Source: Candidatus Aenigmatarchaeota archaeon
GTDB taxonomy: Archaea; EX4484-52
Direction of reading: 5' to 3'
Assembly (NCBI GenBank): GCA_023137195.1
Contig: JAGLPV010000021.1
Coordinates: forward strand, 1-50,822
Length of the DNA stretch: 50,822 bases
The translations under genes and the position numbers were made by a program. The notes beneath the pieces were generated by a model. It did no database searches and had not been told where the DNA came from. It saw only the letters and a program-made list of their open reading frames with translations. Below are positions 17,401-48,097 of this stretch, piece after piece; the first letter of the stretch is position 1, and every line of letters starts with the position of its first letter.

Positions 17401-19906
17401 ATGCATCCCGGTTTGCATAAATATCGTAATTTGAAGATTTATTATGGGAAAGTAGAGATATTCTTGAATCCATTGTATTAAAGTGAATGTCGTCCTCCAA
17501 TGTAGTATTCATCTGGTAAAAATAATTGATATTATTTTCTATTTTCCACAAGCCATACTCTGAAGTTGCATCAAACTGATAATATGCCGTTGTATCTTCA
17601 TAATTTGCCTGTTCTGCCGTTGGATAAACATCATATTCTATTACAATATAACTTTTTGCTTCAATTTCTTCAGTTATATAAAAAGTAAGATTTCCGCCGT
17701 TGTTGATTATCTCGTGCGCGCATGTATATGACTCTGTGTTTGAGCAGTCTATCTTAACAGGACTGCATGTGGTTCCCCCCGTATAGCAAAAAGGATACAT
17801 TCCTTCATCAACAGCCCTGAAAAAGTCTGTAACATTTACTTCCTGGGCAGGTTTCCCACCGCGATTATATATTATTAACCTCACAGGCAAACTGTAGCAG
17901 GAACTGATATTTTCAAGACTGCAATTTGCTCTCTGGTCAACCTTTTGAGGCATTTCTCTTATTATTACAAGATTTGGCGCAGATTCCGGAGCTCCGATAG
18001 GTACCGGATTGGGAAATGGCACAAATTCTTTGTCTGTACCTTCTTCGTCAAGAATTGTAAAATTAATAGATAAATCCGCGTACTTGTTACAGATACAGTC
18101 ATCACCAGTATAACCTGGTCCTTTTTCTTCACAGACCGTTTCATTGTAATTTTCATAATTAGCCTGGGCAGTCGCAGTATAGTTGCCAGGATATAAATAA
18201 AATTTTGCAAGATACGCATAAAAATATTCATAATTATAACTCATAAATGCCGGCATATATATATTTGTTTTATTGTATTCACAAAAAAATGAATTGGCAT
18301 AATCATCCCAACAGCAATAGCTGACAATGTTTGTTGAATTGTCCCCTGTAATTGTAATGACTTCGTCCCCCGGAAGCAAAGGATTTTTCCTAAAATATAT
18401 ACAATTCTCTGTAATATTCACATTCACATTTCCGCAATTGGATGCTGTGCTTGTAAACAGCATCAACTGATATACAGAATAATCATAAGTAGGATCATAA
18501 CTCGGGTAATTCCAAAAAAGCTGAGTTTCATTTATATCTTCAGTGAATCCAAGGTACTCAAACCTTAGACAACAATAAGGCGGAACTTCCACGCTCACAT
18601 TGACCTCTTCTGATGCCCTGTAATCTGAAAAAGCCAGGTAAGTAGGATAAGCAAGATTGCCGCGCGAGTCATTTGCATTAATATAAAAATAGTGCCATCC
18701 TTCATTTTGAACAGTATATATCAGCGTGTAAAAATCAACTCCCGTTTTATTGAAAAAAACTTTTTCCTCCACAGGCGAAGTAATATTAATCCATGCTTCC
18801 TCAAAATCACCATGAAAATCACCAAGATTCATTGTTATTGTAACATTTTCTCCTATTGGAATGTTTACCCATTTCGGACGGATAGTAACATTATAAAACC
18901 ATGGTCTTGAAACAATAGTCTTAAATGTACTTGAATCTTGCGTTATTATCCCTTGAGTATCTTTTGCTTCAAAAGTAAAAGTATGTATTCCTCCTATCGT
19001 CGGATGATAAGTGTAGTAATAATAGTCACTTGTATTGGATGGCGTGTACTCTTGCCTTGTGCCGTTTGGAAGGTCAATGAATAATTTTACGTGCTCGTTC
19101 TCTCCAAACTCATTAACAATGGTTGCACTCATCGTTATATTTGGCTCTCCCATTGCCAATGGAAGATTTACATAAAAAAAAGAATCCTGATCATGAGTGA
19201 CATTGGTAATAACTGCATATGGTCTTATTGCAGTAAAATATCTTTTTTTCTGAAAGCATAACCCCAATACATTGCACTGTGTCTCGTGCGCAATAGTTCC
19301 TTTATCATCGCTTGCCCAAATATAATAAGAATAATTCGCATACTGGTCTGGTGTGTAGTTGACACCATATTGTCCTGTCGTCACATTGATTGCATTCATG
19401 GAAATATTTTCTTCCTCGCCAAAAGGAGTAAGTATTTCCACCCATACATTATTTATATTTAAGTCAGCATCTGTTACATTGGCATATATTTCTGTATCGT
19501 AGTCCTTCACCGCCGGGTCTGGGTCAACCCACGAATTCGTAATATTCGGGGAATCATCCATCGAATAAAAATAAAATGTATCTGAAACATCGCTATCCCC
19601 ATTATTGTTTCTTGCCCATAGATAAAAATGATAATATCCTGTTTCATTAGGCCAGTATGTAATATTGTAAATATCCCCTCCGACATTTTCTATATTGTAA
19701 GTCCCTGCCTCCGGACTGATAGTCACAAACAATGCCAAATCAATACTGCCTCCGACATCATCATAAATTGTCGAAGAAATAGTAATATTACTATTCTTAA
19801 ATGTTGAAGAAGGATAATTTACATTTGTAATGACAACAGCCGCAAAAACGACATTCACACAAAAAAACAAAAAAAACAATATTGCAAATACTGTATTTTT
19901 ATACAT
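11441..19906 (-). CDS. Giant (2821 aa) cell-surface protein: signal peptide, Ig-like N-terminal region, six ~300-aa repeat modules, C-terminal TM anchor
   Basis: N-term MYKNTVFAILFFLFFCVNVVFA; repeated [IL]x[IV][IV]RE[ML][PA]... to PG[LIF]F.L; C-term YYWIIVAAILVILLLFWKIKK; abundant NxS/T sequons. Confidence 0.9.
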   Translation of the reverse strand: MYKNTVFAILFFLFFCVNVVFAAVVITNVNYPSSTFKNSNITISSTIYDDVGGSIDLALFVTISPEAGTYNIENVGGDIYNITYWPNETGYYHFYLWARNNNGDSDVSDTFYFYSMDDSPNITNSWVDPDPAVKDYDTEIYANVTDADLNINNVWVEILTPFGEEENISMNAINVTTGQYGVNYTPDQYANYSYYIWASDDKGTIAHETQCNVLGLCFQKKRYFTAIRPYAVITNVTHDQDSFFYVNLPLAMGEPNITMSATIVNEFGENEHVKLFIDLPNGTRQEYTPSNTSDYYYYTYHPTIGGIHTFTFEAKDTQGIITQDSSTFKTIVSRPWFYNVTIRPKWVNIPIGENVTITMNLGDFHGDFEEAWINITSPVEEKVFFNKTGVDFYTLIYTVQNEGWHYFYINANDSRGNLAYPTYLAFSDYRASEEVNVSVEVPPYCCLRFEYLGFTEDINETQLFWNYPSYDPTYDYSVYQLMLFTSTASNCGNVNVNITENCIYFRKNPLLPGDEVITITGDNSTNIVSYCCWDDYANSFFCEYNKTNIYMPAFMSYNYEYFYAYLAKFYLYPGNYTATAQANYENYNETVCEEKGPGYTGDDCICNKYADLSINFTILDEEGTDKEFVPFPNPVPIGAPESAPNLVIIREMPQKVDQRANCSLENISSCYSLPVRLIIYNRGGKPAQEVNVTDFFRAVDEGMYPFCYTGGTTCSPVKIDCSNTESYTCAHEIINNGGNLTFYITEEIEAKSYIVIEYDVYPTAEQANYEDTTAYYQFDATSEYGLWKIENNINYFYQMNTTLEDDIHFNTMDSRISLLSHNKSSNYDIYANRDALPNKRRTFSAGRQTIFKYNIDPFEGELTAPWTIDLSLPQNITISSCSTFSVNINCSFSPTEHKITYWSDTYDLTHIFPVYFSARSVAQGGFLINVNASFMNNMQSDEYIPGLFINALYGETTSMAPHLIIVREMPDSIPQKENCSLNNRSSCERVDMRLIVYNDGSRSAVNVTMEDEITHSCSDENCSVIRAYCVDGDYSCTVDSPSQTKTTLEYNITSIEAGTFVLLKYSFHPTSKTSLYTAEGINNYDFYMSGDYKDEQDYDYSTYENDETYNPFGSNILYLKNKPSFDYNISIDGNSTKREFLMMENTTFRISLIAKTADTMSLAPQQMSIIIPERMDVLSVLNVYGGDNTCSYNSISRIINCVFTSKNLSDSEERVIRFDAKATSTGIYMFSINTQDNSSANSNFMPGIFTLSRRTYPAVQEENIKIIREMPETTFNETFRVKLILFNSGEYATDINVEDVSYIDLCTSFEAGGCSLVKSCVSSPVGADDIHYYTCGIDADDNVDFHVNRLQSQDYVVLEYDVSPPQTASTYAGNGSLFKFQAIANYTQYNKSVFSIENSILYNPDRASYIGFVKSSGFDFALDAHRVDVGSGSYSEENSKVVEERDFPIGSTRKLTFMANAMDECNESSWNVTLLFPPSFTIYSADYVSGPLCSCEFDNSPENPQVICEGKEAVDANQTIIVTAEVSTLEVNDFLLNASYRFGNIDMDYIGGVFLLTKLESNYIEEPDFIPSPNLVIIREMAEHINQTDNCDPSNPWATCQWAENKIIIYNRGNKDAINVSLDDFSFSHCDSANTSSCNPVAARCIENLPYYNCSVDSIEGLQKSHIHFEVNTMIEPKGYVILRYEYIPALNLTMYENNENYYWFNAYMDYTDVAGTQYPTSRENDGEFNPEEANKIYLKKNASFEFYFDTIALTTGEQRLADRGNVTYFSVQIKARDNVDNASVVFYFDSLWDLYVCNPANPLDSCIVDSVNKTLTFSSLLPKQDQQTYDFTFTATNYEEEADFIGVNYTINNHTTENIPGIFLLSKEKQREFGINPFLYIVRELPEVMAQDFFCQFNDNRCIYVKNRLFLYNFGTRSAYNITLDDALSEHCVGNCSIRRLECLTEEEKNYKYNYNCSVSNNVITFTFDNSIEPQEYAVAEYKVYGTKNMSLYDNVNYYSFSAIGQYINEEGTGMRPAGEEDGYFNPLYSNYMYLSNISEFDFDVDTYIMTTQKERYLFSGKSSYFKLELSSVFESLPADSSVSLDFPDGFVVSSCTTSSSLVNCTLVDLDTVDIIAQKNITKTSSDYVKVVVSPHESGGFIVRSNYTMNSVPQSNRDYNPGFFVLVKKPTETFQLNPQINIIREMPESIPQKTLCSSNNTFGTCEYFVNRVFLYNKGATEARDIIYTESWTESYCSVGSTHCQPLYFECPANSVVNWTVYNESNGTYSLPVIMCEKRDNNTLVFNITKPLYPRNYVSIEYIFAPAQDMNAYSSVSYYEFDGIVDYQNQIRDVLTSTETDEIHNPLLANTLYLTQNSSMNYYFSVSENASHNNRSFMIDEVNNATLSFSALAGDNTIPSPVLINITVPDDITVSDCQFSSGGGMCDIVEKNITAGINNNLLSITYSSSMADKNSATLDLVFNSSSFSDWVVPLYAYSNMSMSTNYNPGLFLLSKDFLYKNVTVIEYVPQPEPVPTPQKSPQPTPEEYSANGVDYKLEVRADETLPPKPPSEKQMGYRVVLEIKPLNFTQSTYQGSAVPVVLNITNIDEKMLENIDIVGVKFEGWAYTDSNIEKLDVGESVLRTVMVQPSTTTEPGFYVVPISGLIGEEQGGIGFFKLQVLKILRLARVEIMESPSRIRLKKNSLAKVPILVKNTGEVNLTNISVQLDALDCLSVVESDTNQTEYPSLDVNESLSISVAVRTNDADICRGSIIIGADQNTYAFSQMIVELRSKVGLKVPSAYYWIIVAAILVILLLFWKIKKSSAVNNVEIEEVKKEVGKT

Positions 19907-25457: not shown

Positions 25458-26318
25458 TCAAAACCCTTCAAGAATCTCTTCAATCTGCCTCTTGTTAATC
25501 GGCTTTTTCATGTAGTCTTTCGCCCCAAGTTCAATACACTGTTTTTTCGTCTTCTCATCATACACAGAAGTCTCCATCACAACAACAACACCCGGGTTGT
25601 CTTTCTTAATCTTCCCTAATGCCTCTACTCCGTCCATCTTCGGCATTTTGATATCCAAAAGAACAAGCGCTGGCTTCTCTTCCTTCGCCTTTGCCACAGC
25701 CTCCACTCCATCGACCGCCTCAATCACATTATATTTACCTACATCAATATAACTCTTGAGAGTCCCTCTCATCATTGACGAGTCATCCACAATAAGAACC
25801 TTTTTTTTCTTCCCTATGCTTTTCTCCTGTTTTCCTGCTTCTGCAATAAATGCTACTTCCTTTGCCTCAAGCACTTTGCCAAGATCTACAAGTATTATCA
25901 ACCTCTCATCAAGTATCCCAACACCCTGTATGTAATCGGAATTAATCTTTTTGGTTATCGCAGATGGAGCCGGCTCAACCTTATCTCCTGTGATTCTCAG
26001 CACTTCATTACACTCATCAACCACCATGCCGACAGTATTGTCATGTATATCTGTAATCAGCACCCTTGTGTTCTTGTCTTTCTCCTTAACAGGCAGGTTT
26101 AGTTTTTTTGCAAGGTCTATCACAACGATGATTTTTCCTCTTAAGTTTATGACGCCGAGGATGTAGTCTTCTGTATTTGGAACTTTTGTGACATCCTCCA
26201 TCTTGATAATTTCTCTTACATCATTTATGTCCACGCCGAATTCTTCATTCTCTATTTTGAAGACCACCAACTGTCTCTCGAAGAATTGCTTTTCTGTGTC
26301 TTTTTGTTCATCTGCCAT
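25458..26318 (-). CDS. CheV-like protein (CheW domain + REC domain), copy A
   Basis: CheW motif VFKIENEEFGVDINDVREIIKMEDVTKVPNTEDYILGVINLRGKIIVVIDLAKKL; REC VLIVDDSSMMRGTLKSY, LVLLDIKMPKMDG, YMKKPINK. Confidence 0.94.
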   Translation of the reverse strand: MADEQKDTEKQFFERQLVVFKIENEEFGVDINDVREIIKMEDVTKVPNTEDYILGVINLRGKIIVVIDLAKKLNLPVKEKDKNTRVLITDIHDNTVGMVVDECNEVLRITGDKVEPAPSAITKKINSDYIQGVGILDERLIILVDLGKVLEAKEVAFIAEAGKQEKSIGKKKKVLIVDDSSMMRGTLKSYIDVGKYNVIEAVDGVEAVAKAKEEKPALVLLDIKMPKMDGVEALGKIKKDNPGVVVVMETSVYDEKTKKQCIELGAKDYMKKPINKRQIEEILEGF

Positions 26319-26339
26319 ACGAAGCCTCCTTATATGAAA

Positions 26340-28652
26340 TTATTTCTTTACCTCCTCTTTGCCTTTCTTTTTATTTCCATCCGGCTTGTCTCCTTTTTTC
26401 ACAGATTCTTTCTTATGCTCTATTTTTTTATCCTCTCTTACTGTATCTTCTACAGAAGAATCATCCAACTTAAATTCTGAAACAATCTTCTTTAAGTCCT
26501 CTGCTCCCTGGGCAAGACTCTGTGCTGCTTCACTTACCTGTGTCATGGACGCTGTTGTCTCCTCCATAGATGCTGATACTTCCTCGGATGCTGCTGCACT
26601 CTCTTCTGCTATTGCACTGACCTCTGCTGCCGATTTTGAGACTTTTTCCACACCGGCCTGCGATTCCTGTGCCGCAGCACTTACTTCCTGCACCTGTCCG
26701 GCAATGCCTTTCACAAGCTCACTGATATTTTCAAGCGATTGTACTGCTTCATGGATTACCGCCGAACCCTTATCTACTGCCTTTTTCGTGCTGTCCATCC
26801 CGGAAACAGATGTTTTTGTCTCTTCCTGCACAGCTGTTATCAAATCTGCAATCTGTGTTGTTGCTTTCTGCGACTCTTCTGCAAGTTTTCTTACCTCATC
26901 TGCAACAACTGCAAATCCTCTTCCGGCTTCTCCTGCCCGTGCCGCTTCAATTGCAGCATTCAATGCAAGAAGATTTGTCTGCTCTGAAATGTTGTTTATG
27001 ACATCTATAATCTTGCCGATTTCCTGGCTCTTTGTATCCAAAGCCGCTATATTTCCTGATGTTTTCTCTGCTGTCTCCATTATCTGGGTCATCGACTCGC
27101 CTGCTCTTTTTCCTGCTCCAAGACCATCAACAGCAGTTTTCTGCGCATTAGAAGCATTTTCAGCGGTTTTCTGGGAATTGTCCGCAACCATTTTTGTAGC
27201 ATTACCGACTTCCTCGATAGATGATTTTGTTTCACCGCTAAGCCTTGAAAGATCCTGTCCTCCCTTTGCAACTTCCTGTATTGTGGATGACACCTGCTGG
27301 CTTGATGCATTTACCTGCTCCGATGAAGCAGAAAGCTCTTCAGCAGATGATGCCGCAATATTAGCATTCTTGGTTATATTAGATATAAGACTTCTCAGGT
27401 TGCCAAGCATAGTTTTCATTGCATTTGTAAGCACAAGAATATCTCCCTTAGCATCTATATTTATATCCTTTGTCAAATCCCCTTTCGCAATAGTCTTGGC
27501 AATTTCTGTCAATTTTTGCGCAGGTCCTGCAACATTATCAAGCATTGAATTCAATGAATTTCCAAGCATACCGATTTCATCTTTGCTATCTACAGTAGCC
27601 CGCCTATCTAATTCAACGGTCTCTTCCAGTCCTCTAAGTTCTCTTACAAGACGGTCAATTGGTTTAGTAATAAGTTTTGCAATAAACAATGCAATTAGAA
27701 CGCTCAAAATTACAGCAACAATTGTAAATCCTACAATCATTGTATTTGCAGAAGATTGTGCAGAAAGCATCTCATCTTTTTGATCCGCACGAATTTCATT
27801 TGCTATATTCTCAAATTCCCTTGCTGCTGCAACAACATTTTCTTCCTCTGCCAGTTGTTCATGATAGAGGGATATGTACTCTTCTCCGGCAGTCTCGTAT
27901 TCTCCCAATGCCTTTGTAATCGTATCAATCTGGTCTAAATTCACCTGCTGATTGAACTTTGCTCTTGTAGTCTTGCACTGGCTGTCTATATCCTCAACAA
28001 GACCTCTCCATTCTGCTGCATATTTTTCATCCTTCCTAAGCATGTAGTTCTTTTCAGCAACCCTTACCGATTCCGCGTATTTTATGAGTCTGTTCGCATC
28101 ATCTGCCTTTCCTATTCTATCTGTAAGCTCTGCTGTTGATTTTCCTGATGCTAAATCTGCATCCAACTGCTCCTTCTGAGATATCCTTAGGGCATCGCAT
28201 TCTGCTTCAACAATCCTCGCTTTCTCAACCATTATCATTTTTGCATCTTCCTGTTCATCGTATATGTCCTCAAATTCCGCAATAGAAGCTTCGTATTTGT
28301 CAAGTTCTTCTGAAAGAGCATCCATCTGCGCTATATTGTCAACGCTATTGAACTTGGCTTTTGTTTGGGCAATCTGGGTATGTGCTCCTTCAACAACAGC
28401 GTTTAGTTTCTGTATAGAATGTTCAGTATCGCTCCCCTGAAGGTCGTATCCTCTCAGCTGGAAGTTCTTTTCCTGCTGTCTTGCCTTCAATACATCTTTC
28501 ACAAGACGATTCGCATCATCTGCCTTATCTACTCTATCAACAACAGTAGACATACTACTATATCCGGTATATCCAATTATAGCAGCAATCAATACCACAA
28601 CAACAAACCCGCAAAGAATTTTCGAGCCGATTTTCATATCCTTGAATCTCAT
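26340..28652 (-). CDS. Methyl-accepting chemotaxis protein A with HBM-like sensor
   Basis: [40 protein letters not shown] signalling tip; HAMP; two RxxEKNFxLR-type sensor motifs; ATG at 28652 preferred to GTG at 28661. Confidence 0.95.
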
Positions 28653-28710
28653 ATTTTTCACACTATTTTATTTTTATTATCCTATATAAAAAATACTGCA
28701 TATATAAACA

Positions 28711-28729
28711 TACACTACAAAATAGTGTA
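28711..28729. promoter_or_regulatory. Inverted repeat in MCP-A/HxlR intergenic region (candidate operator)
   Basis: TACACTA CAAAA TAGTGTA; related CACTATTTTA next to the MCP-A start. Confidence 0.5.
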
Positions 28730-28738
28730 GTTATATTA

Positions 28739-28756
28739 TATATAATGCATTATATA
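28739..28756. promoter_or_regulatory. Perfect 18-bp palindrome upstream of HxlR gene
   Basis: TATATAATGCATTATATA. Confidence 0.45.
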
Positions 28757-28764
28757 ACTCTACT

Positions 28765-29127
28765 ATGAGCAATCATTATTATGATGAACTAAAAAAAAGC
28801 ATGTTGCTGAAACTGCTTCAACTGCTTGGCAAAAAATGGTCTATGTCAATTTTAATTTCATTTATTGATGATGAAAAACAGCAATATTGCACAATAATGA
28901 AAAAATTCAAAAAAGCAATCAATCCTACTCTTTTGTCAGAGAGGCTAAAATCTTTTGAAAAACACAGCATCATAATGAAATGCGATGACGGCTGTTACCA
29001 GATTACAGAACTGGGCAAAAAAGTAATCACTTATCTCGATACTTTTAAAGAGGAAATGGAAAAAAATAATTTCACCTTCCCTGAAAAACTCAAATCAAAA
29101 AAGTATTTTGGTAATGTATATTATTGA
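28765..29127 (+). CDS. HxlR-family winged-helix transcriptional regulator
   Basis: LLGKKWSMSILISFIDDEKQQYCTIMKKFKKAINPTLLSERLKSFEKHSIIMK...YQITELGKKV. Confidence 0.85.
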   Translation: MSNHYYDELKKSMLLKLLQLLGKKWSMSILISFIDDEKQQYCTIMKKFKKAINPTLLSERLKSFEKHSIIMKCDDGCYQITELGKKVITYLDTFKEEMEKNNFTFPEKLKSKKYFGNVYY

Positions 29128-29144
29128 AAAGAGCAATCGCTTAT

Positions 29145-30542
29145 CTAAAAATCATCCAGATCAAAGACGACAAACCCGCTCTTTCTTAATTCATCTTTAC
29201 CCTCTATTTTTCTGGCAATCAAACCAAAATGCTCTTTCCGACTCTCATCACGCCACTGGACATAATACGATTTCTGCTTCAACTTTTCAAGAATATCCAA
29301 TGCCTTATTCTTACCCAAATCCATCCATTTGCATTCAAAGAACCCAATCTCTTTTGCATCCTCATTCAACGCAACAAGGTCTAACTCCACCTCTTTCCGA
29401 CCATTATCCGACTTATAATGCCCCCACCAGTTGCCGATTTTTTCAAAATGAAATTTTAATTTATTCTTTCTATTCAAATCAATCAAAAATTCCTTTGATA
29501 TACCTTCAAACACATATCCAATATAAGAATCAAGATTGTCATAGATTAACTTTGCAATCTTGTCTTTATCCCCTCCTTCAATTTCAGACAGATTGGGATA
29601 AATAAAACGAAACCAGAACTTAAAATAATTATCTGAAATCACATAATGCGTATTTTTTGTTTTTACTTTTTTTTCTGTAACCTTTATTATCTTTTTTACA
29701 AATCTCAAATTAGACAGAACAGACAAATATTTAGGCAGTTTATTTACATCTATATTTGACTTGGATGCAAGTATACTCATTCTCAATGGTCTGTCCTTGA
29801 TTTGCTCTAAAAGAGTAAGATACGTCCCTGTATCCCTCAACTCCTGTTTCAACAAAAACAACGGCTCCTTGTACAATATCTTATCCTGTCTGAGGATATT
29901 TTCTTCTATATTTTTTCTGATTGATTTCTTATCATCAAATTCAAGCAGATACATCGGGATATTTCCCAGTATTGAATGTGCCTGTATTTTTTGCCCTAAA
30001 TTATATTTGGGGAAAAACTCAAAAACATTTTTCAAAAACATAGGCAATAACTCGATTTGTCCTGTCCTCCTGCCGTAAAGCGGACTCTTGTAATCCAGCA
30101 AATCCTCCATCATGCTAATAGAAGAGCCGCAAAGAATCAAAAAAATATTTGTATCTTTAAAATACTCATCCCACGCCATCTGGAATAAAGAAGCCATTGC
30201 CTTGTTTTTCCCCATCAAATAAGGAAATTCATCAATTACAAGAATCAATCTTTCCTTAGATTTTTGCGAAATATATTCAAATAAATCCTCCCAACTCTCA
30301 ACAAGAGGTGTCATTTCATCAAAACTCTCAGCAATTCTTTTTGCTATCTTTTTTATCTGGATCAGATCATTTTCCTGGCTGCACAAATAATATATGTATT
30401 TCTTGTTTTTGCAGAATTCTTTAATAAGAGCAGTTTTCCCAACTCTTCGCCTACCATAAACCAGTAAAAATTCAGGATTTCCTGAATCATGCCTTTGATT
30501 TAATGCTGTCAGTTCCTGTCTTCTGTTAATAAACAAACTCAT
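29145..30542 (-). CDS. Archaeal AAA ATPase (ATPase_2 + DUF234-type C-terminus)
   Basis: FINRRQELTALNQ, LLVYGRRRVGKTALIKEF Walker A, LILVIDEFPYLM Walker B, C-terminal nuclease-like ELDLVALNEDAKEIGFFECKW. Confidence 0.92.
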   Translation of the reverse strand: MSLFINRRQELTALNQRHDSGNPEFLLVYGRRRVGKTALIKEFCKNKKYIYYLCSQENDLIQIKKIAKRIAESFDEMTPLVESWEDLFEYISQKSKERLILVIDEFPYLMGKNKAMASLFQMAWDEYFKDTNIFLILCGSSISMMEDLLDYKSPLYGRRTGQIELLPMFLKNVFEFFPKYNLGQKIQAHSILGNIPMYLLEFDDKKSIRKNIEENILRQDKILYKEPLFLLKQELRDTGTYLTLLEQIKDRPLRMSILASKSNIDVNKLPKYLSVLSNLRFVKKIIKVTEKKVKTKNTHYVISDNYFKFWFRFIYPNLSEIEGGDKDKIAKLIYDNLDSYIGYVFEGISKEFLIDLNRKNKLKFHFEKIGNWWGHYKSDNGRKEVELDLVALNEDAKEIGFFECKWMDLGKNKALDILEKLKQKSYYVQWRDESRKEHFGLIARKIEGKDELRKSGFVVFDLDDF

Positions 30543-30580
30543 AATAATAATTATTACAAGTATAATTTTAAATAGTTTTC

Positions 30581-30673
30581 TTAAAAATCATCCAAATCAA
30601 ACACAAAAAAACCAATCTTCCTCAATTCTTCTTTTCCTTCAATTTTTCTGCCAATCAACCCGAAATGCTCTGT
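30581..30673 (-). pseudogene. 3' fragment of a second ATPase_2/DUF234 gene
   Basis: Reverse translation EHFGLIGRKIEGKEELRKIGFFVFDLDDF* versus intact EHFGLIARKIEGKDELRKSGFVVFDLDDF*. Confidence 0.85.
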
Positions 30674-30746
30674 CTAATTAATTTCCTGAATTATCATGTA
30701 TTAAGATTAAAACTACTTATATACTAAATTATATAAATATAATCTC

Positions 30747-31034
30747 TTGTATAATGATACCTATTCTACAAACAAACAAAATGGTGGTAATATTTCAAGA
30801 CACAAAACCCAATCAGAACAAAAACAAAAAGATATTGACGAACTTACAAATATTCTAAAAGAAGCAATAAAATCAGATGGCTGCTGTTTCTGCAATAATT
30901 CTCATCCCTGCCAGACACTGGAAACTGCAATCCTCTGCAAATACAAAAAAAGCTATGTGCACATAGAATGCTGCTCTTCAAAATGCAGTTGGCATGGTGA
31001 ACCATGCAAGCATGCAATCAACATCCATATGTAA
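30747..31034 (+). CDS. Possible Cys-rich small protein
   Basis: 95-aa ORF with clustered Cys/His (CCFCNNSHPC...CC..C..HGEPCKH). Confidence 0.4.
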   Translation: MYNDTYSTNKQNGGNISRHKTQSEQKQKDIDELTNILKEAIKSDGCCFCNNSHPCQTLETAILCKYKKSYVHIECCSSKCSWHGEPCKHAINIHM

Positions 31035-31048
31035 ACTCTAAATCACAG

Positions 31049-31213
31049 TTACTTGTTCTTAATATTCTTCAACACATCGCCAATCTGTCTCTTGTTAATC
31101 GGCTTTTTCAGGTAGTCTTTCGCCCCAAGTTCAATGCACTGCTTTTTTGTCTTCTCATCATACACAGAAGTCTCCATCACAACAACAACACCCTGGTTGT
31201 CTTTCTTAAGTTT
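31049..31213 (-). pseudogene. C-terminal REC fragment of a third CheV-like gene
   Basis: KKDNQGVVVVMETSVYDEKTKKQCIELGAKDYLKKPINKRQIGDVLKNIKNK*; 31081-31209 differs from 25481-25609 at 6 positions by my count. Confidence 0.9.
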
Positions 31214-31455
31214 GTATATTGATGTTTAATTACGAGGAAATTTTTGAGATATCCTTTAAAATAATCATAAATGTTTCCTTACAATCGACTCTACTATTAC
31301 ACTTCATTTCACCTCCGCTGGAGCAAAAGGTATTACAAAGAATCATAAAAAAAGGATTTTTATAACTCATTCCTACAAACGAAGTCATACTACATAACCT
31401 TATATTAAATGTTTGTATATATTCTTATTTACTATTATTGATAATATATTTTTAT

Positions 31456-31671
31456 ATGAGCAAATACATCCCCATGATAATGGACATTTTAGATGAAAAA
31501 GAAATCAAAAGCACAAACGAGATTTTAAAGAAACTCGAAGAAAGAAGCGGAAAAACAATCAATTGGCATTATATTTACCATATTTTAATGAAATTGAAAG
31601 AAAACGGAGAAATTGAACGATATAAAGCAAATGCCGGCTTTTTTTGGAGAAAAAGAAAAGCAAGAGAATAG
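31456..31671 (+). CDS. Small winged-helix DNA-binding protein
   Basis: MSKYIPMIMDILDEKEIKSTNEILKKLEERSGKTINWHYIYHILMKLKENGEIERYKANAGFFWRKR. Confidence 0.6.
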   Translation: MSKYIPMIMDILDEKEIKSTNEILKKLEERSGKTINWHYIYHILMKLKENGEIERYKANAGFFWRKRKARE

Positions 31672-31682
31672 AAAAATCTTTT

Positions 31683-32102
31683 TTAAGTAAACTTTCGACA
31701 ATCGCTGAGTCTATCCTTTCCACTCTTTTGATAGCCAACTATTTTATCTATCCTCTTTTTCAGGTCAAATATATCAAACGGCTTTTCAATATAATCTCTC
31801 GAAACAGCACTACCCAATTCTCTGCTTACATCATCTGTTCTTGCTGTCAAAAAAACAATAGGTATCTTTTTCCATTTAGGCTTTGATTGTATCTGCGCTG
31901 CGGTCTCCAAACCATCTATGCCCGGCATCATTATATCCAGCAAAATTAAATCCGGTATTTGTCTGTTTTTTAACAAAGATATGCATTCCTCCCCACTATC
32001 TGCCTCCATAAAAGAATAACTCGATGAGATATCATCAAGACCTCTCTTCACACAATGAATCATATCATAATTGTCATCTACAATCATTATTGTTTTTTTC
32101 AT
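31683..32102 (-). CDS. CheY-like response regulator, copy B
   Basis: MIVDDNYDMIHCVKRGLDD, LILLDIMMPGIDG, FLTARTDD, IEKPFD; close paralog of 24848..25219. Confidence 0.92.
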   Translation of the reverse strand: MKKTIMIVDDNYDMIHCVKRGLDDISSSYSFMEADSGEECISLLKNRQIPDLILLDIMMPGIDGLETAAQIQSKPKWKKIPIVFLTARTDDVSRELGSAVSRDYIEKPFDIFDLKKRIDKIVGYQKSGKDRLSDCRKFT

Positions 32103-32113
32103 AACTTTCCTTT

Positions 32114-32986
32114 TTAGATACTTTTCAAAATATCAACAATCTGCTTCTTGCTAATTGGTTTTTTCAGGTAATCCTTTGCCCCTGATTTAAGACACAACTC
32201 CTTTGTTTCATCCTCGTAAACTGATGTTTCCATCACAACAACAGTCTTTGGATTCACCTCTTTAATCTGTTTGAGTGCTCCAATTCCGTCCAGCTTTGGC
32301 ATCTTAATATCCAACAGGATAAGAGAAGGCTTTTCTTCCTTTACCTTCAATACAGCTTCCTCCCCATCTCCTGCCTCAATCACATCATATTTATCTGCAT
32401 CAATATAACTTTTCAATGTCCCTCTCATCATTGACGAGTCATCCACAATAAGCACTTTTTTCTTTTCCTCTTTTTTTTCTGGTTGCCCTGAATGTTGATC
32501 TTCCACCTGCTTTATATAATCCACATCCTTGTTTTCAAATACTTTCCCCAGATCAAGCAGAATCAGAATCCTATCCTCCAATATACCAACACCCTGCAGA
32601 TAATCTGAATCTATTTTTTTGGTAATTGTGGAAGGAGCCGGCTTTATTTTATCTCCGGTAATTCTCAATACCTCATTACACTCGTCAACAACCATCCCAA
32701 CGGTATTACCTTCAAATTCTGTTATTATTACTCTTGTATTTTTATCTCTTTCTTTAGCAGGCATACCTAATTTTTTTGCCAGATCAACCACAACGATTAT
32801 TTTGCCGCGCAGATTTATCACACCAATAATGTAGTCTTCGGTTCTGGGAATATGGGTAATATCCTCCATCTTAATGATTTCTCTCACATCATTAATGTCC
32901 ACCCCGAATTCCTCTTTCTCGATTCTGAAGATAACGAGCTGGCGCTCGAAAAACCGTTTTTCTGTATCTTTTTGCTCTTCTTCCAT
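32114..32986 (-). CDS. CheV-like protein (CheW + REC), copy B
   Basis: IFRIEKEEFGVDINDVREIIKMEDITHIPRTEDYIIGVINLRGKIIVVVDLAKKL; VLIVDDSSMMRGTLKSY, LILLDIKMPKLDG. Confidence 0.94.
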   Translation of the reverse strand: MEEEQKDTEKRFFERQLVIFRIEKEEFGVDINDVREIIKMEDITHIPRTEDYIIGVINLRGKIIVVVDLAKKLGMPAKERDKNTRVIITEFEGNTVGMVVDECNEVLRITGDKIKPAPSTITKKIDSDYLQGVGILEDRILILLDLGKVFENKDVDYIKQVEDQHSGQPEKKEEKKKVLIVDDSSMMRGTLKSYIDADKYDVIEAGDGEEAVLKVKEEKPSLILLDIKMPKLDGIGALKQIKEVNPKTVVVMETSVYEDETKELCLKSGAKDYLKKPISKKQIVDILKSI

Positions 32987-32999
32987 TTTAATCACTGCT

Positions 33000-35087
33000 T
33001 TATTTTTTTACCTGTTTTTTCTGTTTTGGTTCTTCTTTTTTGACAGCAGGCGATTTTGCCTGCTGTTTTGTTTCCTGCTGCTGGATGAGGCTCTCATCAA
33101 TCTTAAACTGACTGATTAGCTTCTTCAGGTCTTCTGCGCCTTGTGCAAGTAGCTGGGCAGATTCTGCAACCTGTGTCATGGATGCTGTAGTCTCTTCCAC
33201 AGAAGCTGAAACCTCTTCCGAACCAGCGGCAGATTCTTCTGCAACCGCGCTTACTTCATTGATTGATTTATCTACTTTTTCTGCATTTGCAAGCTGTTCT
33301 TGTGTGGATGCACTAATCTCCTGTATCTGGTCTGCAACACCGGAAACTTTACTGCTTATAAGTTCCAGCGACTTCAATGCCTCATTTACTGTCTGGCTTC
33401 CTTCCTCAACTTCCTTTGTTCCTACCTGCATGGAGTCAACTGCCTTGTTAGTGCTTTCGGTAATGTCACTTATCATTGTCTCAATTTGCTTTGTTGCTTT
33501 TTGCGACTCCTCGGCAAGCTTTCTTACCTCATCTGCAACAACTGCAAATCCTCGTCCTGCTTCTCCTGCCCGTGCTGCCTCAATTGCAGCATTTAATGCC
33601 AGAAGATTTGTCTGCTCTGAAATAGAGTTAATCGCCTCAACGATTTTTGTTATCTCCTTGCTTTTTTCTCCAAGCTCACCAACAACCTTTGCAGAAGTAC
33701 CAACAGCACTACTAATATCACCCATTTTCTCTCCTGCTTTTTTTGCTGCCGCAGCACCACTCAATGAAGCCTCGTTTGCCTCAGTAGCGTTTTTGGCAGA
33801 ATCCTGTGCAGATTCTGCAACTGCCTTTATTGAAGCAATCAATTGCTGGGCTCCTTCTTTTGTTTCACCTGCATTCTTGCTCAAGTTCTGTCCTCCTTTA
33901 GCAATCTCCTGTATTGTTGAACTCACCTGCTCTGTTGATGCATTAACCTCCTGCGCACTTGCCGAGAGTTCTTCTGCAGTTGATGCTGCCATCTGTGAAT
34001 TCTGCATGACTTTTGCTACCATATTAGAAAGATTATCAGCCATCATATTTAATGCATTTGCCAGAGTTCCTATTTCATCCTTACTCTGGTAATTTATCCT
34101 TTTGCTTAAATCACCATTAGCCATTGTCTTTGCAAAATCCACGCCTTTCAACAATGGTCTTGTAATTATTCTGGCCAGGAACAGGGCTATAACCACACCA
34201 AGTATCACAGCAATAATTATCGAAGCAATGATTATCATATTTGCCGTTGAACTCAACTCCTGTGCCTCGTTCTTTGCAACTTCCAACTGAGCATAACCTG
34301 CATTTTCTGCTGCCTGTGCCTGCTCTATAACAGTTAGCCCCATGGTGTTCATATCAACCAAAATAATTTGCAGTTTTTTGACATTTTCAATCCAGTCCAC
34401 GCATAGTTTTTTATATTCTTGTACCTGTATTTTTGCCTGCGCTATTATTTGCCTGTCGGCAGGAGTAGCTACAGTCATTTCCTGTTCATTAAGAAGTACC
34501 GCCAAAGAAGCAAAATCAATCATTAATTTCTCTTCAGATGCCTTATCCTTCCTTAACATGTAATTTTTTTCCTGTACTCTACATTCTTTCACAAGAGCAT
34601 ATGCTTCTTGATTGTTTTTTAATAAATTCTCGATTACTCTTGCATTCTCAACAATTGTTGTTTCAGTTTCCCTGTTTTGGACAAGTAGTGCAACTGCTTC
34701 ATGGTATTTTGCCTCATACGCTTCTGTTTCTTCTCTTGCCTCCCGGGAGAGTTTAAGCAGTTCATCATTATCATACTCTGCCGCCAACTCGTCAACTTCA
34801 TCCAAAAAACCATATAGTTCTGCAACATTTTGCTTTGCACGCTCATAAATTTCATCCTCTTCTTCAAGCAGATAATTCTTCTCTTCCAGAATAGTGGACA
34901 GAGCCATTCTCTCAACGCCTGTCGCATACTCGACGGCTTTTGCATTATTGTCTGTTATGCCAAACAAGGCACCAGATATATTTCCGATATAGCTATAAGC
35001 CAATATCCCTAAAATTACTGTAATTGCAACAAGGGATAAAGAACCACCTAATATCTTATTTCTTACACTCATATCATTTAGATTCAT
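33000..35087 (-). CDS. Methyl-accepting chemotaxis protein B with HBM-like sensor
   Basis: [55 protein letters not shown] and [13 protein letters not shown] sensor motifs. Confidence 0.95.
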
Positions 35088-35374
35088 ATTTTCTCACATT
35101 TTATTCATTTAATCATATATATTTTTGTATATTCAAATATTTATATATTAAATATTATATATAAACCTTTATATATTTTACGGTAACTATTATCATGTAA
35201 TTTTATCATAACAAAATCCTTCGACTTCACAAAATTTCCTAAAAATCAGGGTAAACTTTTCATCTCTATCTTTAAACAATCAAAAACCGCCCTCTTAAAT
35301 ATCTATAAAAATAAAAAGACAATGCATAAATATATATAAAACCTTATATATTTTAAGTAATATAAATAAACCTT

Positions 35375-36205
35375 ATGGAAACCGATGAAGAAAAAAAATG
35401 GCAGAATCTAAAAAAAACAATCACCAAAGAACTTAATTTTGACACAGAAAATTATACCAATAATTTCATAAAAAGAAGAGTCGCCTGCCGGATGAGAGCA
35501 ATTAAAATAGATGATTATTTCGCCTATTCACTCGCTCTTCAAAAAGACAAAGAAGAACAAAAAAAACTCCTGAAGGAACTTACAATCCATGTCACAAATT
35601 TTTTCAGGGACAGGGAAATGTGGAACACTCTGGAAACAAAAATTTTAATCCCTCTAATTGATGCAAAAATTGATGCAAACGACAAAAACCTCTCTTTCTG
35701 GTGCGCCGGTGCATCTTACGGGGATGAACCCTATTCTCTTGCAATCCTCCTGTCAGAAATATTAAGCAAGAAAAACAAACTGTCTAACTTTCACATCAGG
35801 ATAACAGCAGAGGATATTGAATCAAAAGTAATTGAAAAAGCAAAAAAAGGAGAGTTTGTAGATACGCACTTTTCTGAGATGGATGTGTCTCTGCTTGAAA
35901 AATATTTTGACAATATCAATAGTTCTTTTGTTATAAAAGAGGACATAAAAAAGCTTATCTACTTCAGGACAAGAGATATATTATCTCCCTTCGGAGCGCC
36001 AAAAAATATAGATGTCCTTTTTTGCAGGAACACTGTAATCTATTTTGAACGGGAAATAAAAGAAAACCTTTACACGAAATTTTCAGAAATACTCAAACCA
36101 AAAGGATATTTTGTAATGGGTAAAATGGAAACTCTTAGCGGACCTGCAAGAGATGATTTTAATTGCATTGACACCTCAAACAAATTTTTCCGGAAAAAAT
36201 CATAA
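35375..36205 (+). CDS. cheR: Chemotaxis protein methyltransferase CheR
   Basis: LTIHVTNFFRDREMW, FWCAGASYGDEPYSLAILL, DVLFCRNTVIYFERE, YFVMGKMETL. Confidence 0.95.
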   Translation: METDEEKKWQNLKKTITKELNFDTENYTNNFIKRRVACRMRAIKIDDYFAYSLALQKDKEEQKKLLKELTIHVTNFFRDREMWNTLETKILIPLIDAKIDANDKNLSFWCAGASYGDEPYSLAILLSEILSKKNKLSNFHIRITAEDIESKVIEKAKKGEFVDTHFSEMDVSLLEKYFDNINSSFVIKEDIKKLIYFRTRDILSPFGAPKNIDVLFCRNTVIYFEREIKENLYTKFSEILKPKGYFVMGKMETLSGPARDDFNCIDTSNKFFRKKS

Positions 36206-36331
36206 ATATCCTCGAGAAGACATTTACTCCATCTAATAATACTATTTGTATTGTTATCTAACCAGAGGGGGAACTCATGAGAAAAGAAGAATAACCACAA
36301 AAGTATCTTAAAATTCAACGGTTCCGTGTGT

Positions 36332-36449
36332 CATTCAACAAAGTTGAATGTGCAGAAAATCATGGAGAGTCATCGGTCTTTGACTGATGTGCGGAAAATC
36401 TTTGAGTCATCTGTCTCGAACAGATGTGCGGAAAATCTCTTTGATTTTC
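36332..36449. repeat. Array of three hairpin + TGYRGAAAATC units with covarying stems
   Basis: CATTCAAC-AAA-GTTGAATG-TGCAGAAAATC; CATCGGTC-TTT-GACTGATG-TGCGGAAAATC; CATCTGT-CTCGA-ACAGATG-TGCGGAAAATC, then TCTTT-GATTTTC. Confidence 0.75.
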
Positions 36450-36476
36450 TTGCATTCCTACATCTCATGGATATAA

Positions 36477-37508
36477 TCATCTTTTTCTTCTACAAATCAA
36501 ATCTACCCTCTTTATTATATTCCCAAGTGGCTCAACATAATCTGCCAGATTATTATCAACAATCGACTTAGGCATCCCATATATCATACTGGTCGCCTTA
36601 TCCTGCGCTATAACAACACCATTATTCTTTTTTATTGCTCTTGCCCCATCTGTACCGTCCTTTCCCATTCCGGTAAGCACAACTCCTATCACATTTTTAC
36701 CTGCAGCCGCAGCCGCAGACCGGAACATCATATTCACGCAAGGTCTCACATATTCTTCCTTTGGCTTTTGATTTAGGGATATATACAGATCAATCCCTTT
36801 TTTTATCTCAATATGATGATCTCCCGGGCAGACATAAACAGTCCCTTTTTTCAGTGCCTCTCCATGCCTGGCTTCCTTTACATTAACCTGGCAGATGGAC
36901 TTCAACCGATTAATAAAATGAATCATAAAATTCCCCGGCATGTGCTGTACAAGAACAACAGGCAGGTAATAATCCTCCGGAAGCGTAATCAAAATCCTCT
37001 CCACGCATGGGGGACCTCCTGTAGATGCACCAATCAGGAGAATCTTTTGTGTCTCCTGTGAATGTATTTTAGGCACAATTATCCTCTTCGTAAACTGATT
37101 CAAATTGCTCCCCGCTGCCGCCAAAACTTTTTCCCGTATCTCTTTTTCAAAAGCAATCTTGTTTTCCGGGATAATCAACCTCTGCGGCTTCTCGATAAAA
37201 TCAACCGCCCCAAGCTCAAGCGCCTTGATTGTTATATCCCCATCCTTCCTTGTATAGGAACTGATCATAACAACAGGAGTTTTCGTCGTATTCATTATCT
37301 GCTCTAAAGTAGAAAGACCGTCTAATTTTGGCATTTCAACATCAAGAGTGACAACATCGTATTTTTTTAACTTTAGTTTTTCCAGAGCCTCCAGACCATT
37401 CACTGCTCTATCGACACAAACATTATCAAAAGACAAAATCGTTCTTGAAATCAGATTCCTGATAAATAAAGAATCATCAACAACCAGAACATTAATTTTA
37501 TTTTTCAT
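36477..37508 (-). CDS. cheB: Chemotaxis response regulator protein-glutamate methylesterase CheB
   Basis: REC (VLVVDDSLFIRNL, DVVTLDVEMPKLDG) + methylesterase (LLIGASTGGPPCVERIL, VVLVQHMPGNFM, VVLTGMGKDGTDGARAIK). Confidence 0.96.
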   Translation of the reverse strand: MKNKINVLVVDDSLFIRNLISRTILSFDNVCVDRAVNGLEALEKLKLKKYDVVTLDVEMPKLDGLSTLEQIMNTTKTPVVMISSYTRKDGDITIKALELGAVDFIEKPQRLIIPENKIAFEKEIREKVLAAAGSNLNQFTKRIIVPKIHSQETQKILLIGASTGGPPCVERILITLPEDYYLPVVLVQHMPGNFMIHFINRLKSICQVNVKEARHGEALKKGTVYVCPGDHHIEIKKGIDLYISLNQKPKEEYVRPCVNMMFRSAAAAAGKNVIGVVLTGMGKDGTDGARAIKKNNGVVIAQDKATSMIYGMPKSIVDNNLADYVEPLGNIIKRVDLICRRKR

Positions 37509-37532
37509 ATAACTATTCAACTATGTAAACAT

Positions 37533-37889
37533 TTACAACTTAGACAACTCTTCCAGGATTTTTGCTTCCTGGAACGGTTTTACAATAAACCCCTTTGCCC
37601 CGTTTTTTATAGCATCGCTTACAATAGACTGCTGACCGGCAGAAGAGCACATCAAAACATTCGCATCAGGAAAATCCGCCTTTATCTTTTTCAGACAATC
37701 TATACCGCCAAGATTCGGCATGACAACATCCATAAACACAACATCCGGCTTATTTTGCTTATATTTTTCATAACCGTCATTGCCATCAACTCCCTCTGCA
37801 ACAACCGTATAATTATTCTTGATAAGAATTTTCTTGATTATCATTCTCATGAACGCAGAATCGTCAACAAGCATTACTGTTTTTGCCAT
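37533..37889 (-). CDS. cheY: CheY
   Basis: MLVDDSAFMRMIIKKIL, VVFMDVVMPNLGG, LMCSSAGQ, IVKPF. Confidence 0.93.
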   Translation of the reverse strand: MAKTVMLVDDSAFMRMIIKKILIKNNYTVVAEGVDGNDGYEKYKQNKPDVVFMDVVMPNLGGIDCLKKIKADFPDANVLMCSSAGQQSIVSDAIKNGAKGFIVKPFQEAKILEELSKL

Positions 37890-37922
37890 ATTCTATATTA
37901 TTAATTATACATATTTAAAAAC

Positions 37923-38282
37923 TTATCCGCAAAGCGTCTTCACAGCATTATTTATATCATCGCCCCTAAAGGGTTTAGTAATGTATATTTTTGCGCCCAG
38001 AGCCTTTGTTTCAGCTTTTGTCTTTTCATTCAACACAGAAGAGCACATCACAACTTTCGCAAGAGGATTTATTTTCTTGATTTCTCTTAGCGCACTAATC
38101 CCATCTGTCCCGGGCATAAGTATATCTAAAAATACCAGATTTGGTTTTTTTTCCTTGTACACATCTACTATTGCCGCACCATCTGCCGCTTCCCCAACCA
38201 CCTCACAACCGGCTTTTTTCAGGAAATTCTTTAATATTGTTCTCATAAGACCAGAGTCATCTGCCATAATTACTGTTGTCAT
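37923..38282 (-). CDS. cheY: CheY (second)
   Basis: IMADDSGLMRTILKNFL, LVFLDILMPGTDG, VMCSSVLNEKTK, ITKPF. Confidence 0.93.
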   Translation of the reverse strand: MTTVIMADDSGLMRTILKNFLKKAGCEVVGEAADGAAIVDVYKEKKPNLVFLDILMPGTDGISALREIKKINPLAKVVMCSSVLNEKTKAETKALGAKIYITKPFRGDDINNAVKTLCG

Positions 38283-38391
38283 TTTTTCACCTATCTATTA
38301 ATCATACATCATATATTTTTATATTTATATATTTTATCATTACAAGTAAACTCATATATTTAAAATCATATAGTATCTACAACATTGCCTC

Positions 38392-40377
38392 TTACTCAAA
38401 CAAAGTCCCTACATCCACAATCAATATCACCCTCCCGCTCCCAAGGATTGTAGCTCCTGAAAATCCATTTGTTTGCTTTAAAATATTCTCAAGAGGCTTT
38501 ATGATTATATGCTGCTCACCTATAACTTCATCAATAATCAACCCGATTTCTTCTCCCTTCCTCTCGACAACAAGCACAAAATGCATATCCTTTTCTTCAT
38601 CACCTTGATTCTCTTCAATGCAAAGCAGTTTTTTCAGCCAAAATAAAGGCAAATCAGAGTTCCTGTAAATGATTGTATCCTCATTCTGGATTTTTTTTAT
38701 ATCACTTTTCTTTATTGTGATTATATTATTGACAACATCCATTGGCACTGCATATTCGCGAGTTCCCGCACGGAAAAAAAGACTTTGTATAATCGCAAGC
38801 GACAAAGGCAGCCGGAGAGTCACTGTTGTTCCAATATCTTTTTCTGAATTTATTGTGTATGTACCTCTCAAACTGCGTATTGTGGACTGGACAACATCCA
38901 TCCCAACACCCCTACCCGAAACATCTGTTATTACCTCTGTTGTACTAAACCCGGGTAAAAATATCAGATTAAATGCCTCCTTCTCAGTCATCATGCCTGC
39001 TTCTTTCTCTGTTATGAGCCCTTTCTTTATCGCTGTCATTTTCAGCACTTCGGGATTCATTCCATTACCATCATCACTAATCTCTATGACACATGTATTT
39101 TTTTCTTTTTTTGCAACAAGCTTCACAACTCCGGTCGGCTTTTTGTTGTTCTTCTTCCTCTCCTCAGGAATCTCAACCCCATGATCCACTGCATTCCTCA
39201 ATAAATGAACCAAAGGATCTCCAATCTTATCCAACACAGTCCTGTCAAGCGTAATCTCCTCTCCCTCGACAATAAAATTAACTTCCTTGCTCTGCTTCTT
39301 TGCCAAATCTCTTACCATCCGTGGAAATTTATCAAAAATATGCTTTACCGGAACCATCCTTGCTTCAATCACTTCATCCTGTAATTTTATTATCATCTTG
39401 TCTATGTCTGAAATAATTCTGTCAAGTTCTGAAATATGATATCTCTTGCTTAACTCATCAAGCCCTATCTTTGCTATGACAAGCTCCCCTGCCAAATTCA
39501 TCAAAGAATCCAGCTTTGTTATACTTACCCGTATATTCTGCACTGTCTGGACAACATTCTTCTTTGATTCTCCTCCTGCGGGCGCAGAATCTTTCGAAAT
39601 TTCCTGCTTTTCTGCCGCTTTTTTATCGCTGTATTTTTCAATACTCACCTTCTTTATTTCCGCAACACCCATTATTCTTTTTTTAATTTTCCCTTGCTCC
39701 TCTTCTGAGATAATCAACAAATTAAATTCCTTGCCAAAATTACCTTCCTCCAGTAACTTTAAATCAGGATGACTTCCAACCACCTCGCAAACATTCTCAA
39801 GAGCATTGAACACCAGCTGGACACGAACCCCCGGAAACATACAGTCTTCCGTAAGAACAATCTTTGCCCGTAACACCTTATCTTTTGCACCTGCAATTTT
39901 TTTTCTTGCATTATCATCCAGATTAAACTCCACATCTCCTCCCTTATTTCCTGCTCCCTGTTCACCATCCGAATCTTTTTTTTCAACCTCAGACGAAGTC
40001 AGCATTTGTTTAAGTCTCTCTATAATGGCGGCATTCCCGGATGTATCTCCCTCTGAACCTGATGAAGCAACATCATCTACCATTGCCTCTACCTCATCTA
40101 TGCACTCAAAAACCAAATCAATCAAATCGCTATTCACTTTGACCTTATTGTTCCTGACTTCATCAAATACATTTTCAAGCTTGTGCATCATCTCTTTGAT
40201 GCTCATAAAACCCATTGTCGCCGAATTACCTTTTAATGTATGGGCCGCCCTGAATATTACATCTATTGCCTCTTTATCCAACTGATTTTTCTCAAGCACC
40301 AAAATAGAATTATTAAGATTTTCAATCTGCTCTTTTGCATCTGCAATAAATTCTTCTATATACTCCTCATTTGCCAT
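38392..40377 (-). CDS. cheA: Chemotaxis histidine kinase CheA
   Basis: Hpt RAAHTLKGNSATMGF, dimerisation, LLRNAVDHGVEIPEER, DDGNGMN, GFSTTEVITDVSGRGVGMDVV, CheW-like C-terminus. Confidence 0.97.
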   Translation of the reverse strand: MANEEYIEEFIADAKEQIENLNNSILVLEKNQLDKEAIDVIFRAAHTLKGNSATMGFMSIKEMMHKLENVFDEVRNNKVKVNSDLIDLVFECIDEVEAMVDDVASSGSEGDTSGNAAIIERLKQMLTSSEVEKKDSDGEQGAGNKGGDVEFNLDDNARKKIAGAKDKVLRAKIVLTEDCMFPGVRVQLVFNALENVCEVVGSHPDLKLLEEGNFGKEFNLLIISEEEQGKIKKRIMGVAEIKKVSIEKYSDKKAAEKQEISKDSAPAGGESKKNVVQTVQNIRVSITKLDSLMNLAGELVIAKIGLDELSKRYHISELDRIISDIDKMIIKLQDEVIEARMVPVKHIFDKFPRMVRDLAKKQSKEVNFIVEGEEITLDRTVLDKIGDPLVHLLRNAVDHGVEIPEERKKNNKKPTGVVKLVAKKEKNTCVIEISDDGNGMNPEVLKMTAIKKGLITEKEAGMMTEKEAFNLIFLPGFSTTEVITDVSGRGVGMDVVQSTIRSLRGTYTINSEKDIGTTVTLRLPLSLAIIQSLFFRAGTREYAVPMDVVNNIITIKKSDIKKIQNEDTIIYRNSDLPLFWLKKLLCIEENQGDEEKDMHFVLVVERKGEEIGLIIDEVIGEQHIIIKPLENILKQTNGFSGATILGSGRVILIVDVGTLFE

Positions 40378-40392
40378 ATTATTCTATAATAC

Positions 40393-41001
40393 TCAAGCCA
40401 TTTTTTTGTTCAACTCTTTTATTATGCGATTCATCGCCTTTGGCGTTGTCATAAGTATGAATTCTCCTTTAAAATTTTCCTTATCTATGTGCAGTTTTGT
40501 ATTAGTAAGCAAAGCTGTATGCGCAACCATTGCATGCTGTGCTGCAACTGTATTCAAAAGAGAGGCCGCCATATCATAGCAAGAAGACGGAACACTAGGC
40601 AATATCTTCATCTCAAGAAAATCAGCCAGGGAATTTAGGTATGCCGCGCAAATTATATTCCCTACCTCTTTCAAAGTAGAATCTCCCATCTCATCAACAT
40701 CTTTCTTCTCTTCTCCCAATAGCAAAGAAATAAGACGAAGAGCAGTATTTTTTTCAAACATCAAAAGCATTGTGCCGTCAATATCCCCATTAATCTCAAG
40801 AAGTACACCATATACCTGCTCTTCCGGGCGCTCAAGAGTCTCGGCAATTTTTTCTATCGCAACAAAACTCACATCAGGGACCTTTATATCTATCCTCTTA
40901 TTCACCATATCAGATAATGCTGTCGCAGCATTTCCTGCTCCAATATTTGCAATTTCTTTAATCGCATCATGTTCCAGTTCACTTAACATCTTCTTAATCA
41001 T
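40393..41001 (-). CDS. cheC: CheC phosphatase
   Basis: Two active-site-like helices: AIKEIANIGAGNAATALSDM and TLKEVGNIICAAYLNSLADF. Confidence 0.93.
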   Translation of the reverse strand: MIKKMLSELEHDAIKEIANIGAGNAATALSDMVNKRIDIKVPDVSFVAIEKIAETLERPEEQVYGVLLEINGDIDGTMLLMFEKNTALRLISLLLGEEKKDVDEMGDSTLKEVGNIICAAYLNSLADFLEMKILPSVPSSCYDMAASLLNTVAAQHAMVAHTALLTNTKLHIDKENFKGEFILMTTPKAMNRIIKELNKKMA

Positions 41002-47973: not shown

Positions 47974-48097
47974 GGGTTCATAGCTCAGTCTGGTTAGAGC
48001 ACCGGGCTCTTAAACAGGGTGAAGCTTTTAAGCAGATGAAGCGGGAATCTGTATAGATACCCGGGTGTCGGGGGTTCAAATCCCCTTGGACTCGCCA
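47974..48097 (+). tRNA. tRNA-Lys(CTT) with 46-nt intron (48013-48058) and encoded CCA
   Basis: Acceptor GGGTTCA/TGGACTC, D-arm GCTC/GAGC, anticodon stem CCGGG/CCCGG with loop CTCTTA^A, T-arm GGGGGTTCAAATCCCCT; bulge-helix-bulge at the 37/38 junction. Confidence 0.92.

Follow-up and report, generated by a model that had tools for sequence, protein, structure and literature searches.

The hairpin array between cheR and cheB

The window analysed here, the whole stretch of 50,822 nucleotides, belongs to a genome (G000) of 1.42 Mb in 57 contigs that is ~85% complete. Its genes are archaeal in kind (a GatD-type asparaginase, an SRP54-type GTPase, an archaeal-type RNA polymerase B subunit and SecD/SecF), and we infer that the host falls in the genus of 'Ca. 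Nanohalarchaeota archaeon B49_G9'. A chemotaxis cluster at 25458-41001 encodes two MCPs, CheW-receiver fusions, CheR, CheB, two CheY-like receivers, CheA and CheC; chemotaxis genes have already been reported from Nanohaloarchaeota (PMC9765267). Elsewhere in the window, a single 2821-aa ORF at 11441-19906, with only a sub-threshold NPCBM_assoc match, is possibly a large surface protein.

The convergent cheR and cheB genes of this cluster are separated by three 33-nt hairpin-plus-linker units, arranged head to tail at 36329-36437 with spacings of 39 and 37 nt. Tandem Repeats Finder scores this array above all others in the window (109). The features of the locus are as follows.

35375-36205, + strand: cheR, convergent upstream neighbour (Pfam CheR, 1.9e-47)
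36292-36328 (start approximate), + strand: degenerate 5' arm, a remnant of AATCCACAGGAA...TTCCGTG (by-eye alignment with other copies)
36329-36361, + strand: unit 1, module A, TGTCATTCAACAAAGTTGAATGTGCAGAAAATC, with stem 36332-36339/36343-36350 (sequence, covariance model)
36368-36400, + strand: unit 2, module B, with stem CATCGGTC (36371-36378)/GACTGATG (36382-36389) and linker TGCGGAAAATC (sequence, covariance model)
36405-36437, + strand: unit 3, module C, with stem CATCTGT (36408-36414)/ACAGATG (36420-36426) and linker TGCGGAAAATC (sequence, covariance model)
36431-36449, + strand: closing stem, GAAAATC (36431-36437)/GATTTTC (36443-36449) (sequence, predicted fold)
36450-36472, + strand: 3' arm TTGCATTCCTACATCTCATGGAT, consensus CTGCATTCCCGCATCCGTGGAT, 4 nt from the cheB stop codon (copy alignment)
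36477-37520, - strand: cheB, convergent downstream neighbour (Pfam CheB_methylest, 5.2e-60)

An earlier note on this DNA had described three units with their stems, linkers, ~37-39 spacing and GAAAATC/GATTTTC complementarity, and all of these were found in place when the sequence was re-read. Its description is amended in two respects. The linker is not unpaired, for its GAAAATC portion supplies the left side of a further stem that closes the structure, and the three units are modules of one larger mobile-type element with inverted terminal arms. This copy has three modules and decayed arms. In its predicted fold, TCCGTG of the 5' arm pairs with CATGGA and closes the structure (z = -2.7 on the + strand and -2.0 on the - strand), and GAAAATC from unit 1 or unit 2 can alternatively pair with GATTTTC at 36443-36449. 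Read on the - strand, the element would be the 3' UTR of cheB.

Extent, anatomy and covariation of the repeat family

The search for further copies that the earlier note had proposed found them both in G000 and in a congener, B49_G9 (G002; MAG, GenBank QMVB01). In G000, where copies were counted solely through sequence searches, 38 places lie within one mismatch of TGTGCRGAAAATC, as opposed to 1 for a reversed-pattern control, so the array is not a product of chance. The covariance model, likewise suggested earlier, recovers 49 units at E<=0.01, ~47 of them strong, in ~30 dispersed elements. The same model gives 8 units in G002, two of them weak, and 6-8 are hence counted; one weak match (C6:21650) is a real element (L258), and the other, on C64, was rejected as the start of an ORF in AT-rich DNA outside any element. 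All genomes compared are incomplete MAGs. No covariance-model units were found in two further congeners (G001 and G003), and the 30 other genomes of the phylum gave no covariance-model match except one borderline; weak matches occur in G025 (covariance model) and G015. A wider spread was considered and rejected: among 39 matches in GTDB contigs, two from B49_G9 are real and the others carry no matching stem, and none of six exact-pattern matches in viral contigs has one. Phage and plasmid collections gave no match.

The earlier note had recognised no known repeat family, and the Rfam search is in agreement: across 4227 families, only a tRNA was matched in the window, and six element loci gave nothing at E<=0.1. 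The tRNA match is 121 nt long (47974-48094) against a 71-position model, a length as for an intron-bearing tRNA. Among the matches listed in a literature search with sequence strings, a single 11-mer was hit and none was relevant by title; literature searches on small mobile palindromes in DPANN archaea turned up little.

The anatomy of the element was read from a side-by-side comparison of all copies. Outer inverted arms of the form AATCCAC...GTGGATT (AATCCACAGGAACGCACGGAA at one end and TTCCGTGCGTTCCGTGGATT at the other) enclose hairpin 1 and then a closing stem that holds 0-3 extra hairpin modules in its loop. The linker TGCAGAAAATC forms the left arm of this second stem, and GATTTTC together with GCA closes it. 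When the best-fitting right arm is taken, the closing stem pairs at 7/7 positions in 22 of 35 elements, and alternative matched arms (AAAAAGC/GCTTTTT and GAAAATT/AATTTTC) are also observed. The arms, decayed in many copies, flank 0-4 hairpin units, most copies having a single unit and some, the coreless elements, having none. A coreless copy in G002 (C1:45380) is 91% identical over 80 nt to the ~155-bp C21 element of G000 and then skips to the 3' arm; the core thus behaves as a cassette of ~55 bp. A second kind of outer arm, ATCCACAAGATTaacACAAGATT...AATCTCGTGGAAATCTGTGGATT, is attached to the same hairpin core at L186 2150-2290, L175 2030-2130 and L199 2110-2248; the arms that carry cores are thus of two types or more.

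Covariation was evaluated in an alignment of 34 distinct units. Across the 8 stem pairs, 96.7% of cells are paired and 68 cells are changed on both sides, compared with 24.3 +/- 3.4 in shuffles; sliding the pairing by 1-3 columns leaves 0-16 such cells. The stems therefore keep pairing despite sequence change, as had been noticed from the window alone. The double changes behind the term 'compensatory' are counted over sequences; independent events are fewer, since much of the change divides the three module types. In type A modules, both the outermost and the innermost pair can be either C-G or T-A, and all four combinations are represented. Pairing with covariation is also seen for column 4 (C-G in 22 units, T-A in 11), A5-T21 is present in 33/34 units and T6-A20 in 34/34, and 7/34 units start with TGTC or CGTC. 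Most units have 8 pairs and a 3-nt loop, and some module C units have 7 pairs and a 5-nt loop. Template-switch mutation can also keep palindromic DNA matched, so the covariation alone is no proof of RNA function.

Genomic position, movement and shared sites

Copies occur on both strands and in intergenic gaps. Simple ORF calls, which make these counts approximate, put ~14 of the 23 gaps with elements between convergent genes, 7 between tandem genes and 2 between divergent ones; the window, for comparison, has ~4 convergent junctions in 35. On the same approximate calls, one end of ~14/22 elements lies 0-3 nt from a stop codon and often shares the stop (TAATCCAC).

Orthologous genes of G000 and G002 mostly share 73-80% DNA identity (one pair, 88%), and their 4-fold sites are mostly ~43% identical. 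The coreless G002 copy described above adjoins different genes than the C21 elements, and identity of 91% at a non-orthologous place, despite the ~43% at 4-fold sites, points to recent movement.

For a comparison of sites, 14 element-adjacent G000 genes were used as queries: their C-terminal pieces were matched to the congener genomes, and the sequence following each match was read. Nine orthologous gene ends in G002 lack the element found in G000, a count in which some gene ends may be paralogues and absence could also be loss. Taken with the coreless copy, these gene ends strongly indicate that the family moved in the recent past. In G001 and G003, the element is absent from all gene ends that could be read. 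At one gene end, the element is present in opposite orientations (L176 2596-2729 in G000 and L258 in G002), as would result from inversion or from insertion at that stop codon on two independent occasions. None of the three congener MAGs yielded a CheB orthologue with which the site in the window could be compared.

Four sites carry the element in both species (G000/G002: C48/C1, C24/C12, C3/C6 and C38/C8). The 33-nt core is identical at 32/33 positions at C48/C1, where the intergenic DNA outside it is barely alignable, and at 33/33 positions at C24/C12. Site-specific variants are common to both species at shared sites, and this speaks against homogenisation among copies. Each stem at C38/C8 includes one pair in which both bases have changed. 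Unit number differs between G000 and G002, with 4 versus 1 at C3/C6 and 3 versus 1 at C38/C8. A neutral insertion would be expected to diverge far more than the core has done at shared sites, an observation that counts against the mobile reading, and the best reading is that some copies are under structural constraint. The selection on structure proposed in the earlier note fits this conserved core; the structure itself is a palindromic repeat of known kind rather than an unrecognised class of RNA.

Origin, relatives and possible role

The array in the window probably represents a single copy of a MITE/REP/BOX-like palindromic repeat of a nanohaloarchaeal genus, modular in build and mobile but non-autonomous. 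A transposase acting in trans would presumably recognise its folded ends or hairpins. No Y1_Tnp was found in G000 and TnpB was not found either; G002 holds one Y1 fragment (L273 4904-5074), on the contig with the rejected C64 match, which was rejected as a partner since it is decayed and not flanked by the repeat. The search covered the Y1 and TnpB classes. The flanks inspected by eye showed no clean target-site duplication; they are too diverged to give exact empty sites. Insertions would survive mainly in convergent gaps, often ending at or just past a stop codon, and this position would place most copies, as 3'-UTR hairpins, in the transcript of the gene with the adjoining stop. The differences in module number may have arisen by tandem duplication. 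In old copies the core would be constrained, perhaps as a shield for mRNA 3' ends or as the fold that a transposase recognises, and the element may bring its host some benefit.

The 81-aa frame that spans the array (36326..36571) and the 37-39 nt tandem spacing are the points that favour a coding repeat or an array of the CRISPR or attC kind. A coding repeat, the alternative raised in the earlier note, fails since copies lie in intergenic gaps on both strands at ~30 loci. CRISPR and attC arrays were rejected as well: there are no unique spacers, the linker between stems is shared while the stems vary instead, and most copies are single units. Explanations of this kind are extremely improbable. 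Transcription terminators or insulators between convergent genes would suit hairpin-rich elements in mostly convergent gaps. Intrinsic termination in archaea is, however, mainly T-run dependent, and the copies read have no T-run after their hairpins; convergent orthologous gene ends also manage without the element, and this role appears very unlikely.

Another alternative is a true cis-acting 3'-UTR RNA that controls termination, mRNA stability or translation of the gene with the adjoining stop, kept by selection and only incidentally mobile. In its favour are cores of 32/33 and 33/33 identity at two orthologous sites where flanking 4-fold sites are mostly ~43% identical, the compensatory changes in both C38/C8 stems and elements that end at stop codons; E. 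coli REPs <=15 nt from a stop have also been reported to lower translation (PMC12306157). Yet the element is dispensable at the nine orthologous gene ends without it and is not seen in two congeners, the neighbouring genes are functionally unrelated, another locus carries a near-identical coreless copy, and a few copies occupy divergent gaps. We consider this explanation unlikely, and return to a mobile palindromic repeat for comparison with known families.

Among these, the CGTC-tagged REP superfamily (Di Nocera et al. 2013, PMC3733652) shares short dispersed hairpins, a preference for convergent or downstream gaps and the lack of a dedicated transposase, and some of its members are nested in longer palindromes, as here (PMC3733652). 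The stem of the present repeat likewise begins with A-T and T-A, counted from inside the paired C, and type A units often start with TGTC or CGTC. The tag of that superfamily (CGTC, TGTC or CCTC) is unpaired, whereas the tag C is paired here and covaries between C-G and T-A. Stems in that superfamily have 8-9 bp and loops of 4-5 nt; here most units have 8 pairs with a 3-nt loop, and some module C units 7 pairs with a 5-nt loop. The tail here is TGC[AG]GAAAATC rather than CCA, multi-unit copies run head to tail rather than as head-to-head dimers, and the host is archaeal. Because of the mismatches in tag pairing, tail and unit order, the repeat was not filed under the CGTC-tagged REPs. GTAG REPs resemble it in that they too are dispersed hairpins outside genes, with ends able to provide a stop codon (PMC3733652), but they have RAYT transposases; here no GTAG tag is present, and no Y1-type transposase occurs in the ~85% complete G000.

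The BOX elements of streptococci (PMC3049150) offer a likeness in build and position, judged from their description: two end modules surround a variable number of internal hairpin modules, and the elements are enriched between convergent genes. BOX size at one site varies between strains (PMC3049150), and here module number differs at orthologous sites. The host is unrelated, however, the internal modules are covarying hairpins, and neither a target duplication nor a related insertion sequence was found. Like MITEs, the element is small (<300 bp), non-coding, folded, dispersed and apparently mobile, with terminal inverted repeats (AATCCACAGGAACGCACGGAA and its complement, many arms being decayed). 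No clean target duplication was evident by eye in its diverged flanks, and no cognate insertion sequence was found in the incomplete MAGs searched for Y1 and TnpB; unlike in MITEs, the core grows by modules. REPs have been reported in both domains by RepRanger (PMC12306157), and a REP-like repeat in an archaeon is therefore no novelty in itself. The present one is a real repeat family of known kind (REP, BOX or MITE type) that is new as a family and absent from Rfam and the literature searched.

Much is known of small mobile palindromes in bacteria; the present family brings such elements to view in a reduced archaeal genome and has an unusually readable history, which covers the arms, the insertion of a hairpin cassette, the growth of modules in tandem, old sites common to both species and more recent movement. 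A tentative possibility is that in this DPANN archaeon the mobile repeat has been recruited for 3'-UTR control, with a cassette behind stop codons that would tune translation or mRNA decay and be selected at a subset of sites. With its conserved sites and its differences in presence and absence, the family offers a case in which the acquisition of a role at gene 3' ends by a mobile repeat can be tested.
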